Assembly: GCF_008728635.1 (NCBI RefSeq)
Contig: NZ_CP044285.1
Coordinates: 1,302,001-1,366,000 of the forward strand
Reading direction: 5' to 3'
Length of the DNA: 64,000 nt
Source of the DNA: Hymenobacter baengnokdamensis
GTDB taxonomy: Bacteria > Bacteroidota > Bacteroidia > Cytophagales > Hymenobacteraceae
Part shown: positions 58,325 to 62,716 of the stretch, piece by piece
Layout: every line of letters begins with the position of its first letter
How positions within the stretch are numbered: the first letter of the stretch is position 1
Position numbers and translations under genes: made by a program
Notes under the pieces: model-generated
Database searches by the model: none
What the model saw: the letters and a program-made list of their open reading frames with translations, nothing else
What the model was told of the DNA's origin: nothing

Positions 58325-59206
58325 TTACTCGTCCTCCGGAAACTTGCCCATATTGCCGCTCTCGAAGTCGGCAATGGCCGCCATCAGCTCCTCATTGGTA
58401 TTCATCACGAACGGCCCGTAGGTAGCCAGCGGCTCTTCGATGGGCGCGCCGGCCAGCACCAGCACGAGGCTGTCTTCAGTGGCCGTGAGCTGCACGTCGG
58501 CCGAGTTCCAGCCCAGCACCACGAGCTGGTGGGTGTGGGCGGGCCGGTCGCCGTTGACCAGCACCGCGCCGCGCACCACGTAGAGGCCCACGTTGTAGGC
58601 GGCGGGCAGCGTCAGCACGAAGTCATCGGCTTTCCTCAGCTGCAAATCGAGAAGCGTGAGGGGCGAAAACGTACTGGCTGGCCCAGTCGCCCCACCATAG
58701 CTGCCCGCAATAACGCGGATGCTGCCCTGGCCGCCCGGCACCGGCACGCTCGGAATGCGGGCCGCCCGCAGCTCCTGGTACTTGGGTGCTACCAGCTTAT
58801 CGGCTTTCGGCATATTCACCCACAGCTGCAACAATTCGAGGGTGCCGCCGCGCCGGGCAAAGTCGCGGTCGTACATTTCGGCGTGGCGCAGGCCGGCGCC
58901 GGCGGTCATCCACTGCACGTCGCCGGGGCCGATGGTGCCATCGTGGCCGGCTGTGTCGCGGTGAGCGAGGTAGCCATCGTACACCACGGTCACCGTTTCG
59001 AAGCCCCGGTGCGGATGGGGCGGCGAGCCCAGCGGCGTGTCGGTGGGCGCAATCTGCATCGGCCCGATGTGGTCGATAAGCAAATACGGGCTCAGCTGCC
59101 GGATGCGCGGCCCCGGCATGGGGCTGGTCACGTCGAAGCCGTCGCCAACGGCTTTTTTGTTGCCATCAATAACCTGGAAAACGCGGCGGAAGGAGGGAGC
59201 GGCCAT
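58325..59206 (-). CDS. Pirin family protein
   Basis: 293-aa bicupin of the pirin family. The N-terminal cupin keeps the metal ligands: His64 and His66 in PHPHRGFETVTVV, and His108 and Glu110 in AGAGLRHAEM. FQVIDGNKKAVGDGF at the start and PFVMNTNEELMAAIADFESG at the end are typical. Bacterial pirins act as quercetin dioxygenases or bind other metabolic enzymes; which applies here is not known. The gene is single, upstream of a long palindrome. Confidence 0.92.
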   Translation of the reverse strand: MAAPSFRRVFQVIDGNKKAVGDGFDVTSPMPGPRIRQLSPYLLIDHIGPMQIAPTDTPLGSPPHPHRGFETVTVVYDGYLAHRDTAGHDGTIGPGDVQWMTAGAGLRHAEMYDRDFARRGGTLELLQLWVNMPKADKLVAPKYQELRAARIPSVPVPGGQGSIRVIAGSYGGATGPASTFSPLTLLDLQLRKADDFVLTLPAAYNVGLYVVRGAVLVNGDRPAHTHQLVVLGWNSADVQLTATEDSLVLVLAGAPIEEPLATYGPFVMNTNEELMAAIADFESGNMGKFPEDE

Positions 59207-59277
59207 TAGCAGATAAAATGCGGGGTGAGTGCAGGTTTTATAAGCCGGGGCGGGGCGAAAGGTTATGGTGTGCTACG

Positions 59278-59808
59278 CTAGCTAATGATGTCCGGGAACG
59301 CAGTCTTCGCCTGTCGATGAGAGATTACAAGGCAATTAACAATATTGAAAAGCTCTAGATACTGGGGGCGCATAATCTCCTTAAGCTTGTCATTTACGAA
59401 TGATAATTTTATTTCGTCGGCTGGCGCACAGTGGATTATATGAATTAAGTGTGCAGGGTTAGACCGCGGCCAAGATGGTGGTAAACATGCGTCAATATCT
59501 AGGCTAGAGGCGAGGGCAGTACGCACGGCAGTAAGCATCGCAATGACCGATAGAGATTTATGAAATAAATCAACCGCCCGGTTGCCTAGTTTAGGTTCGG
59601 TGGCTTGCAGCCAAACAGAATAGTCCTTTAGCTCAGCGATGTAAAGATGTTGGTTGCTAGGCTCATACCAGCCTATATCCATTTCACCTAGGTTATGAGC
59701 AGAGCGGCGTTGGTAGCCAACACAATTTTCAAAAGCAAAATATTCATAGCCGGTCAGGTCAAGCGTAATCGCTGACTCGGTAAATGGCATGGTGAAATTT
59801 TGTTTCAT
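59278..59808 (-). CDS. PD-(D/E)XK nuclease-like partner of an AAA ATPase
   Basis: 176 aa, family not recognised. The first 70 residues fit a PD-(D/E)XK nuclease core: Glu27 in YEYFAFENCVG, Asp44 in LGEMDIGWYEP, then Glu59-Leu-Lys61 in LYIAELKDYSVW, with strand predictions around each. The rest is helical (AVDLFHKSLSVIAMLTAVRT) and ends LFNIVNCLVISHRQAKTAFP. Its ATG overlaps the ATPase stop (ATGA), so the two are translationally coupled and very probably work together. The low GC content marks transfer. Nuclease activity is an inference from the motif only. Confidence 0.6.
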   Translation of the reverse strand: MKQNFTMPFTESAITLDLTGYEYFAFENCVGYQRRSAHNLGEMDIGWYEPSNQHLYIAELKDYSVWLQATEPKLGNRAVDLFHKSLSVIAMLTAVRTALASSLDIDACLPPSWPRSNPAHLIHIIHCAPADEIKLSFVNDKLKEIMRPQYLELFNIVNCLVISHRQAKTAFPDIIS

Positions 59809-60884
59809 TTGCTCAGTGCGGCAGCTATTTCCTGGTCAAACATTTCAAGCGCCGCATCTACAATAGGATTAGCCGGTAAGCCATCCCGTAAATCAGAAAA
59901 CATAGGTTGTACTAGGCCATCTGTAGCTTGTGGTACTAGCGAACAGCATTGCATACTAAGCTTAGGATTTTGCTGAGCACAAATGACAAGTTGTTTGGCC
60001 ACGAAGTAATTATGCGAAGTGAGGAATATCTGTACGCCAGCTTCTGCCAAGTTTACCAGCATACCCATTAGGGCGCGGATGGCTTTAGGGTGAAGAGCAG
60101 TTTCGGGTTCGTCTAAAAATAGAATGGTGCCTTTATGAAGCTGGCGGTTGCGGATGAGCGTAGTCAAGATACCAATTTTCTTGATGCCTTCTGCCGTGAG
60201 AGCCATTGGGAATTCCTGTTTGCCCTTGAAAAAAACGAACCTCTCCTCTTTTTCAGTTTGACGGATTTCACCACTAAATAATTCTTCTAATGCAGTATTA
60301 ACGCGCTTCAATGCCTGGGCATAGTCACCCCGACCAGTTGGCACATCTAGGCTATTGATTAAGTCGAGGTAAGTGTCATCAAATCCTAATAAATCGTTTG
60401 GGTCACGGGTGAACCGAATAGCTCGGAAGGCAGTTAAGACTTCTTTAGCCGGTATGAAAAGGGCATTGAAACTAGCATCAGCCAATTCCAAATGCTCATT
60501 GACATCAGCTACAGTAGTACGCGCCGACTCTGTGAACGAAGCGACTAAGTGTGGCTTAAGTCCATCAACTGTACTAAAAGTTAGCTCTAAGCTAAGCTTC
60601 TCCTTACTTCCTTTGGTTACAAGAGAACCAATGCCAGTGGTAACGCGAGGCTGAAAAACGGTATCGAGCTTTTCACTGAAAGTATTTTTGAAAAGTGGTG
60701 ATTTAGTGGTTGCGTAACGACTACGACTAACAATTTCTAGTGATTTGCTAGCCGCATATAATAGTCGAAGCACACCCGTTTTACCCGTATCGTTCTCCCC
60801 AATAATTAAATTAATATTGCCTACGTTGGATAAATGAAATTCCGATAGGCGGAGAAAATTGCGGATTGTGATTTTCTCAAGCAT
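59805..60884 (-). CDS. AAA/ABC-type ATPase of the OLD/RecF-like group
   Basis: 359 aa. Starts MLEKITIRNFLRLSEFHLSN; Walker A GENDTGKT (29-36), signature-like ALTAEGIKKIG (228-238), Walker B TILFLDEPE (253-261) and H-loop TSHNYF (His291). This layout, with a short insertion instead of a coiled coil, matches the AAA_15/AAA_21 ATPases found in OLD, PARIS, Septu and similar anti-phage systems; a TOPRIM domain as in OLD is missing. First gene of a two-gene unit with the nuclease-like gene. A sampled 60-nt line has 42% GC against 63% just outside, so the pair was probably acquired. Confidence 0.82.
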   Translation of the reverse strand: MLEKITIRNFLRLSEFHLSNVGNINLIIGENDTGKTGVLRLLYAASKSLEIVSRSRYATTKSPLFKNTFSEKLDTVFQPRVTTGIGSLVTKGSKEKLSLELTFSTVDGLKPHLVASFTESARTTVADVNEHLELADASFNALFIPAKEVLTAFRAIRFTRDPNDLLGFDDTYLDLINSLDVPTGRGDYAQALKRVNTALEELFSGEIRQTEKEERFVFFKGKQEFPMALTAEGIKKIGILTTLIRNRQLHKGTILFLDEPETALHPKAIRALMGMLVNLAEAGVQIFLTSHNYFVAKQLVICAQQNPKLSMQCCSLVPQATDGLVQPMFSDLRDGLPANPIVDAALEMFDQEIAAALSK

Positions 60885-60931
60885 CAGGAATCAATTTAGG
60901 TTGATAATTAGTTAATAGGCCCAAAACTACA

Positions 60932-60963
60932 ACGCGGCGGCCCCGTTGCCGGAGCCGCCGCGT
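60932..60963. terminator. GC-rich hairpin between cytochrome and ATPase genes
   Basis: ACGCGGCGGC (60932-60941) pairs with GCCGCCGCGT (60954-60963), 12-nt loop. It lies 19 nt past the cytochrome c stop; only a weak T-rich tail, so its role as terminator of the dehydrogenase-cytochrome operon is probable but not sure. Confidence 0.5.
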
Positions 60964-60981
60964 AAATATTCGAAAAATAAG

Positions 60982-61434
60982 TTATTTGGGCAGCGTGGCG
61001 CGCACGGCTTTCACGTCGGCCACCTGCACGGCGCTGGCTTTGTTGCCGAAGTTGTTGCGCACGTAGGTGAGCACGTCGGCTATCTGCTGGTCGGTGAGGT
61101 AGTTCTGGGCGGGCATGTGCTGCTTGTAGTCGTTGCCGTCGATTTCGATGGGCTCGGCCAGGCCGGCGAGCACGATGTGGGCCAGCTTGGCCTTGTCGCC
61201 GAGCACGTAGCTGGTTTTGCTGAGCGGTGGGTTCATGTTGGGTACGCCGCCGCCATCGGCCATGTGGCAGGTGATGCACACGTTCTTATACACCACCGCG
61301 CCACGTGTGAGAGACGCGGCCATTGCCGGATTGGCTTTGGTGCTGGTTTTCTTCGGGGCCGGGCGGTGCTGGGCTTGCAGCGAGAGCACGCCGCCGGCCA
61401 AGGCTAGCGCCAGGAAAGCTGATTTGAAAGTCAT
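60982..61434 (-). CDS. Class I cytochrome c
   Basis: 150 aa with signal peptide MTFKSAFLALALAGGVLSLQ. One haem site CITCH (Cys53, Cys56, His57) and a likely axial Met107 in YKQHMPAQNYL; the C-terminal helix LTDQQIADVLTYVRNNFGNK is typical. The start ATG shares one base with the stop of the sugar dehydrogenase gene upstream (TAATG), so the cytochrome is probably its electron acceptor in the periplasm. Confidence 0.92.
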   Translation of the reverse strand: MTFKSAFLALALAGGVLSLQAQHRPAPKKTSTKANPAMAASLTRGAVVYKNVCITCHMADGGGVPNMNPPLSKTSYVLGDKAKLAHIVLAGLAEPIEIDGNDYKQHMPAQNYLTDQQIADVLTYVRNNFGNKASAVQVADVKAVRATLPK

Positions 61435-62716
61435 TATTTCTTAGCGGTATACACGATGCGGTAGATGGTGCCTTTCTGGTCGTCGCTCACGTAAAGAGAG
61501 CCATCGGGACCCTGGGCGAGGCCGCAGGGGCGGTGGTCGGCGCGGCCGCTGGCCGTTTTCTCCGCCGAGCCCGAGAAGTTATCGGCAAATACTTCCCACT
61601 GCCCGCTGGGCTTGCCATCCTTAAACGGCTGAAAAACCACGTAGTAGCCGGCCTGCGGCTCGGGCGCACGGTTCCAGGAGCCGTGGAAGGCGATGAAGGC
61701 GCCGTTGCGGTACTTGGCCGGGAACATCGTGCCGGTGTAGAAGAGCAGCCCATCGGGCGCCATGTGGCCAGGGTAGGCCGCCGCCGGGTCGATGTAGTTG
61801 CCGGTAGCCTCTTTTTTGCCATCGCCGCCGTACTCGGGGCCCTGCATCTTCTTGTGTTGCAGCTGGTCGTAGTAGAGGTAGGGCCAGCCGGCGTTGTCGC
61901 CTTTCTTGAGAGCGTACAGGCACTCGGCAGGCAGCTGGGCTGATTGCTTTTCGGTGTAGAACTGGGGCCAGTTATCGGAGAGCTGGTCGCGGCCGTGCTG
62001 CATCACGAAGAGCTGGTTGTCCTGCGAATTCCAATCCAGGCCCACCACGTTGCGCAGGCCGGTGGCGTAGCGGATGCCATCGGGGTAGCGCTGGTTGAGC
62101 TTATCGGCCTTAAACTGCCAGATGCCCCGGCCGAGTCCAGAATGGGGCAGTTCGGAATACCCTTCGAGCCGCGCGTGCGGTCCTGCTCCTGGCAGGCGTT
62201 GGCGTAGGCGCCGATGTTGACGTAGAGGTTGTCGGCGTTATCGAGCACGATGGATTTCGACTCGTGCTGGCTGCCCACTTTCAGGCCGCGCACCAGCAGC
62301 TCGGGCTTGGTGGGGTCGGTCACTTCGCCCTTGGCGTCGAGCTTGTAGCGGTACACGGCGTGGTCGGACGAGGCGTAGAGGTAGCCGTTTTTCTCGTACA
62401 TGCCCGTGCCGCCGTAGTCTCCGAAGCCGCCCGTCACGGTGGCTTTGCCATTGGCCTGGGGTCGTAGCTCCAGGATGCCTTTACCGTCTTTTACTTTATT
62501 CAGCTTTACATATATAATTCCCTGGGGCGTGACGGCGATGTGGCGGGCCCGGCCGCCGGTTTCGGCCACTTTGAGGGCGCCGAAGCCGGCGGGCAGCTTC
62601 AGGCCGGCATTGTCGGGGTCGGGGGCTACCGTGACGTTGGTCTGGCTGGCGAGCAGCGCCAGGCTGCCGGCCAGAGCAGGCACGGCCAGCAGGTAGCGGG
62701 GAGAAAAGAAACGCAT
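61434..62716 (-). pseudogene. PQQ-type sugar/sorbosone dehydrogenase, frameshifted
   Basis: Exported quinoprotein dehydrogenase of the six-blade soluble glucose dehydrogenase fold, in two frames. The first part (from 62716, MRFFSPRYLLAVPALAGSLA, signal peptide) is in frame to CPILDSAG; the second continues as GIWQFKADKLNQRYPDGIRY, then VVGLDWNSQDNQLFVMQHGR and ends near LAQGPDGSLYVSDDQKGTIY. Restoring one C to the C4 run at 62125-62128 joins them into about 427 aa. So this is either a one-base deletion inactivating the gene or a sequencing error; the rest of the protein shows no decay, favouring the latter or a recent event. Coupled to the cytochrome c gene. Confidence 0.82.

Follow-up and report, generated by a model that had tools for sequence, protein, structure and literature searches.

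The window analysed here, that is, the whole stretch of 64,000 nucleotides of Hymenobacter baengnokdamensis DNA (contig NZ_CP044285.1, positions 1,302,001 to 1,366,000; genome G000, a single contig of 4.43 Mb), contained a pair of minus-strand genes matching the catalogued candidate system HEC-02. The upstream gene (59805 to 60884) encoded an ABC/AAA_21 ATPase of 359 amino acids (aa), and the downstream gene (59278 to 59808) encoded a PD-(D/E)XK-like putative nuclease of 176 aa, both with ATG starts. The two genes overlapped by ATGA at positions 59805 to 59808 on the minus strand, which would couple their translation. A sequence-only reading of the same stretch had described this arrangement, with coordinates that were verified, and a lower guanine plus cytosine (GC) content than in the flanks; its estimate of 42% against 63% in sampled lines was close to the measured 44.1% for the gene pair and 61.9% for the whole window. 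Sliding segments of equal length (n = 1248, step 50) had a mean GC of 61.8% (standard deviation 3.7%), and every segment below 50% overlapped the gene pair. Third-position GC was 0.39 in the ATPase gene and 0.45 in the partner gene, against 0.84 in each neighbouring gene. No promoter of the pair's own was established, with two promoter-like sites found and 3.0 expected.

The ATPase possessed a Walker A motif (GENDTGKT, residues 29 to 36), a signature-like segment (TAEGIKK, residues 230 to 236), the Walker B residues Asp258-Glu259 and the H-loop residue His291, and passed the Pfam cut-offs of AAA_21 (E value 4.3e-22) and AAA_15 only. At E 1, Pfam gave no TOPRIM model for either protein of the pair. 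The ATPase motifs proposed by the sequence-only reading were all recovered. Lys35, Asp258, Glu259 and the signature-region residues Ala231-Glu232 were invariant throughout the wider family as sampled by 14 ATPases (3 plasmid-borne and 11 from genomes, one of them the own genome), and His291 was nearly invariant, being absent from a Parabeggiatoa copy. In PADLOC, the ATPase matched HEC-02A (model PDLC04214, E 2.7e-100, 334 bits, model positions 1 to 336 of 338). Two short, unannotated phage-collection records (MT839135.1 and MT837741.1) held a relative of the ATPase with 29% identity.

The partner matched HEC-02B (model PDLC04224, E 5.5e-14, 50.5 bits, residues 9 to 167, model positions 4 to 168 of 182), which was its sole PADLOC match at E 1, with no match to PtuB or PD-T4-4_B; it had no Pfam match at E 1, and the A3 profile returned nothing at E 1 against PDB sequences. 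It was divergent, scoring 49 bits to the PADLOC partner model, where six of the eight further genomes found scored 74 to 92 bits. Asp44 and the Glu59-X-Lys61 motif, singled out from the sequence beforehand, were present; Asp44, Glu59, Leu60, Lys61 and Lys84 were identical in 120/120 aligned sequences of the partner family (own included) and Glu11 in 119/120, and this conservation makes the motif more than a chance occurrence. The predicted structure of the partner was of high confidence (predicted local distance difference test score, pLDDT, 94.8) with a topology fitting PD-(D/E)XK, and the partner likely has that fold, as judged from the model. A TOPRIM partner was rejected for want of a Pfam or PADLOC match at E 1, and an HNH partner of the Septu PtuB kind for want of a Pfam or PtuB match at E 1, which agrees with the earlier proposal that the partner is unlike those of PARIS and OLD (TOPRIM) and Septu (HNH).

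Pairing was compared in 10 other genomes (G019, whose locus is L003, and those of L004 to L010, L012 and L013), and the ATPase gene adjoined the partner gene in 9 of them, as expected of a conserved unit by the sequence-only reading. In G280 (L006) the match to the ATPase was confined to its C-terminal part, and in L004 the partner open reading frame (ORF) was short (113 aa) and lay about 240 bases from the ATPase gene. As five of the ten partner-bearing other genomes came from one genus, the number of independent lineages is smaller than the count suggests. The partner was present in 2/99 genomes searched (own counted as one), which makes it rare among relatives and supports the earlier view of an acquired unit; G019 was the sole other carrier of the pair within the genus, and the PADLOC partner model was matched in 9/395 genomes of the phylum (own included). 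In L009 (1495 to 2061) and in L086 (around 8611), an HEC-02B gene diverged past about 131 residues, running antisense into an hsdM gene.

Outside chromosomes, the ATPase occurred with a small gene directly downstream on plasmids of Pseudanabaena, Polaromonas and Comamonas (n = 3). The Pseudanabaena and Polaromonas partners were also found by a protein search with a distant family member, whereas the assignment of the Comamonas partner rested solely on its position and a weak alignment. When plasmids were searched with the 176-aa protein, nothing was returned, and a scan of viral contigs with a distant member returned nothing either.

A second and commoner HEC-02 branch was found in the genus, with ATPases scoring 172 to 196 bits to the HEC-02A model. 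In 17 of the 18 ATPase loci examined, a downstream gene overlapped the ATPase gene or lay at most 2 bases from it and showed the D...E-X-K pattern; the eighteenth, L025, had an overlapping ORF of 218 aa, beyond the distance limit used. Four scanned partners of this branch matched HEC-02 models, the PADLOC labels being uneven (the 170-aa model that fits these partners is named HEC-02A), and hhalign joined one of them to the partner family of the window with a probability of 92.5 and E 4.9e-7. Among the second-branch loci (L016 to L033), common upstream sequence was observed in L018 and L028 and in L024 and L032, which hints at further preferred sites.

Of the 11 neighbourhoods inspected outside the own genome, 4 had defence genes next to the pair, in line with the defence-type unit proposed earlier. 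On the Polaromonas plasmid pPNAP01, the pair separated pglX from the remainder of a BREX-2 cluster comprising pglW, pglX, pglZ and brxD. In G307 the pair adjoined an HNH type IV enzyme and a TmtA-like (Tiamat-like) protein, in G193 it was downstream of a NACHT protein and a MoxR-type ATPase, and in G342 HsdM was beside it. The HEC-02 pair of H. rubidus occupied another site than that of the window, flanked by genes that we take to be transaldolase/glucose-6-phosphate isomerase-like and glycosidase-like.

In the window, the pair filled a slot (59269 to 60922) between two minus-strand genes conserved in relatives, which are presumably a cytochrome c-like gene (60982 to 61434) and a pirin-like gene (58325 to 59206). 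The slot was delimited by comparison with G005, which is the closest relative when judged by the cytochrome c gene; its DNA alignment to the window broke off at 59268 and resumed at 60923, both junctions being sharp; DNA identity was 93.8% on the cytochrome c side and 88.9% on the pirin side, and protein identities of the two flank genes were 98.7% and 96.9%. In the same slot, G005 carried another pair, formed by an ORF of 422 aa matching PDC-M29A (141.8 bits) and a protein of 182 aa matching PDC-M29B (43 bits); the sequence-only reading had proposed a presence-or-absence comparison at the site as a check, and the content there differed between the two genomes. In the G005 slot, GC was 0.49 in the ATPase gene, where some stretches came close to 0.4, and 0.55 in the partner gene.

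Slot content was compared in 14 relatives, which were the top cytochrome c matches among 73 matching non-own genomes of the 120 searched (own included). A PDC-M29-type ATPase lay near the cytochrome c gene in eight of them, a frequency that applies to these closest matches and is not genus-wide; three had a desaturase alone, and three had other genes. The PADLOC scan covered three of the eight ATPases (G005, G033 and G531) and their three partners, and the remaining five were assigned by their common N-terminal sequence. A small gene was downstream of the ATPase in 7/8, and L072 had none of at least 100 aa. One of the eight ATPase genes was split in two ORFs (G514, L071 3812 to 5071, in reverse orientation) and another lay behind a desaturase gene. 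The desaturase was identified as a fatty-acid desaturase by a Pfam scan of L075, with L076, L078 and L079 assigned by their common start. A pirin match occurred within the fetched stretch in five of the eight PDC-M29-type loci (L070 having a partial match, and L079 a desaturase gene in addition within the slot) and in three of the six relatives lacking such an ATPase.

No integrase was recognised in the ORF list of the window, and a repeat search (58900 to 61300) revealed no direct repeats at the slot borders. That search returned a single direct repeat, 25 nt long and within the cytochrome c gene, as well as two inverted repeats. One of the inverted repeats was a terminator-like stem of 14 bp (60932 to 60963, minus strand), 3' of the upstream cytochrome c gene, which was kept with small changes in 12/14 relatives as judged by eye and would shield the pair from read-through. 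The other was an 18-nt pair at 78%, taken for chance, with its arms outside the slot in the pirin-like and cytochrome c-like genes. The content of the slot may have been replaced repeatedly by recombination in the common flanks. It seems to us as likely as not that Hymenobacter has here, from the cytochrome c terminator to the pirin promoter, a small exchange site without an integrase, in which two-gene HEC-02 and PDC-M29 modules of the same role swap by flank recombination. A few literature searches, confined to main texts, yielded no description of an exchange slot common to HEC-02 and PDC-M29. Beyond the cytochrome c-like gene, a dehydrogenase-like gene (61434 to 62716) was in two frames (62003 to 62716 and 61434 to 62048) and in one frame in relatives such as L039, due to either a frameshift or an assembly error.

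Both proteins of the pair matched models of PADLOC-DB 2.0.0, and their genes were adjacent, as membership in HEC-02 demands; since both matches are to HEC-02, the pair is not new. Of the new defence module put forward by the sequence-only reading, the acquired ATPase and nuclease-like unit stands and the novelty does not, PADLOC-DB (2023) already containing both proteins as HEC-02. The pair resembles an acquired antiviral module, of a kind that is already in the catalogues. HEC-02 is reportedly an Hma-embedded candidate of a 2024 preprint by Payne et al.; the window pair differed in that it was outside any Hma cluster and alone between housekeeping-type genes, with a divergent partner. PMC12988326 cites both that preprint and the HEC name; statements on Payne et al. 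and Krishnan et al. draw here in part on PMC12137116, PMC12988326 or PMC11411939.

Related ABC ATPases belong to several other systems. The window ATPase matched PD-T4-4_A at 70 bits and shared with PD-T4-4 the two-gene design, but this was far weaker than its match to HEC-02A, and the partner did not match PD-T4-4_B at E 1. Scores to AriA of PARIS, Old and GajA of Gabija were 85, 52.7 and 38.8 bits. The nuclease parts of PARIS, OLD, Gabija and Septu are TOPRIM (as in PARIS and OLD; PMC10568477) or HNH (as in Septu), and the window partner matched neither type. PDC-M29 likewise comprised an ATPase and a small downstream gene, used the same slot in relatives and had a low-GC ATPase gene, but its ATPase was of a different branch, and its partner matched PDC-M29B and not HEC-02B.

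The closest tested design was WonAB of the Vibrio cholerae WASA-1 prophage, described in 2025 in PMC12137116, the source of the following statements. WonAB combines an OLD-like ABC ATPase with a PD-(D/E)xK nuclease, both needed for defence, and mutants of either lost protection. Overproduction of the nuclease was toxic only with an active ATPase, and its authors ruled out simple sequestration. The nuclease aborted infection by blocking translation; genomic DNA was not degraded, and phage DNA replication proceeded with a 2.7-fold defect. Its authors regard WonAB as part of a larger, uncharacterised family in which ABC-ATPase sensors are paired with nucleases, and they cite operons of OLD-ABC ATPases with novel REases (Krishnan et al. 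2020). That description of a tested system and its wider family also tells against the novelty suggested for the window pair. Like the window pair, WonAB is a two-gene operon in which a small PD-(D/E)xK-type protein comes after an OLD-like ABC ATPase lacking TOPRIM, a likeness of design and not of compared sequences. The H-loop histidine is His333 in WonA versus His291 in the window ATPase, so the proteins differ in length before this residue.

By this analogy, WonAB is probably the best mechanistic guide for the window pair. On balance we favour a horizontally acquired HEC-02-type anti-phage system, with an ATPase sensor and a nuclease effector, most likely abortive as WonAB is. The ABC ATPase, probably a dimer, would be sensor and regulator, and the small PD-(D/E)XK-like protein, made by coupled translation, would be the effector, which the ATPase complex would hold or license. 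A phage cue would cause the complex to activate the nuclease, which would cut host or shared nucleic acid and so stop the infection, most likely abortively.

Several results weighed against this interpretation. The PD-(D/E)XK core proposed from sequence agreed with the D/E-X-K residues and the model topology, but Foldseek gave no match for the partner at E 0.001 or better, and the VIA list of the partner also contained unrelated rows, ten of them acetyl-CoA carboxylase (absences from fold lists were given no evidential weight). L013 carried a distant HEC-02B-like gene (1501 to 2079) without ATPase, between two genes that we take to be leucyl-tRNA-synthetase-like and AsnC-like. Next to the pair, the ORF list of the window contained nothing recognisable as a defence gene, and by eye or annotation none was recognised in 7/11 neighbourhoods (G315, G280, G207, G121, Pseudanabaena, Comamonas and H. 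rubidus). The literature search, confined to main texts, yielded no experiment on any HEC-02 pair and no paper combining HEC-02 with PADLOC; the single paper that it listed with HEC-02 or PDC-M29 dealt with cellulose.

The main rival is a restriction-like direct attack, in which the nuclease, once loaded onto invading DNA by the ATPase, destroys the phage or plasmid DNA itself without shutdown of the cell. Many rows of the partner's VIA list were DNA nucleases (e.g., FokI, EcoO109I, BspD6I and McrBC), and some homologous pairs lay in or beside BREX-2, HsdM or an HNH type IV enzyme, all of which would suit such an attack; the pair nevertheless has no methyltransferase or self-marking partner, and with WonAB, the nearest tested design, phage DNA replicates and genomic DNA stays undegraded (PMC12137116). 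We regard direct restriction as possible but clearly the less probable outcome.

An addiction module of the toxin-antitoxin type, with the nuclease kept neutral by the ATPase, appears improbable: the product of the upstream gene is a full ATPase whose catalytic motifs are conserved and not a small labile antitoxin, and simple sequestration was excluded for WonAB, even though the two overlapping genes, the small putative toxin, the low GC, the patchy distribution and the plasmid homologues are what such a module would show. Least probable of all, and very doubtful, is a housekeeping DNA-repair pair of a RecF/SbcC-like ATPase and a nuclease, to which weak matches of the ATPase to models of RecF and UvrA and to chains of Rad50 and UvrA could point; rarity of the partner among the genomes searched, atypical GC, another module at the same site in the nearest relative and defence neighbourhoods in some other genomes all argue against it.

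HEC-02 is at present a database candidate, and the slot ties it by position to PDC-M29, another candidate, providing independent support for both as defence modules. Being compact (1.6 kb), from an environmental genus and with likely catalytic residues clear from 120 sequences, the pair is directly testable. The HEC-02 branch was found in the phylum of Hymenobacter and on plasmids of one cyanobacterium and two betaproteobacteria, and, if a WonAB-like mechanism is true, this branch would be tied to a tested sensor-plus-nuclease design.
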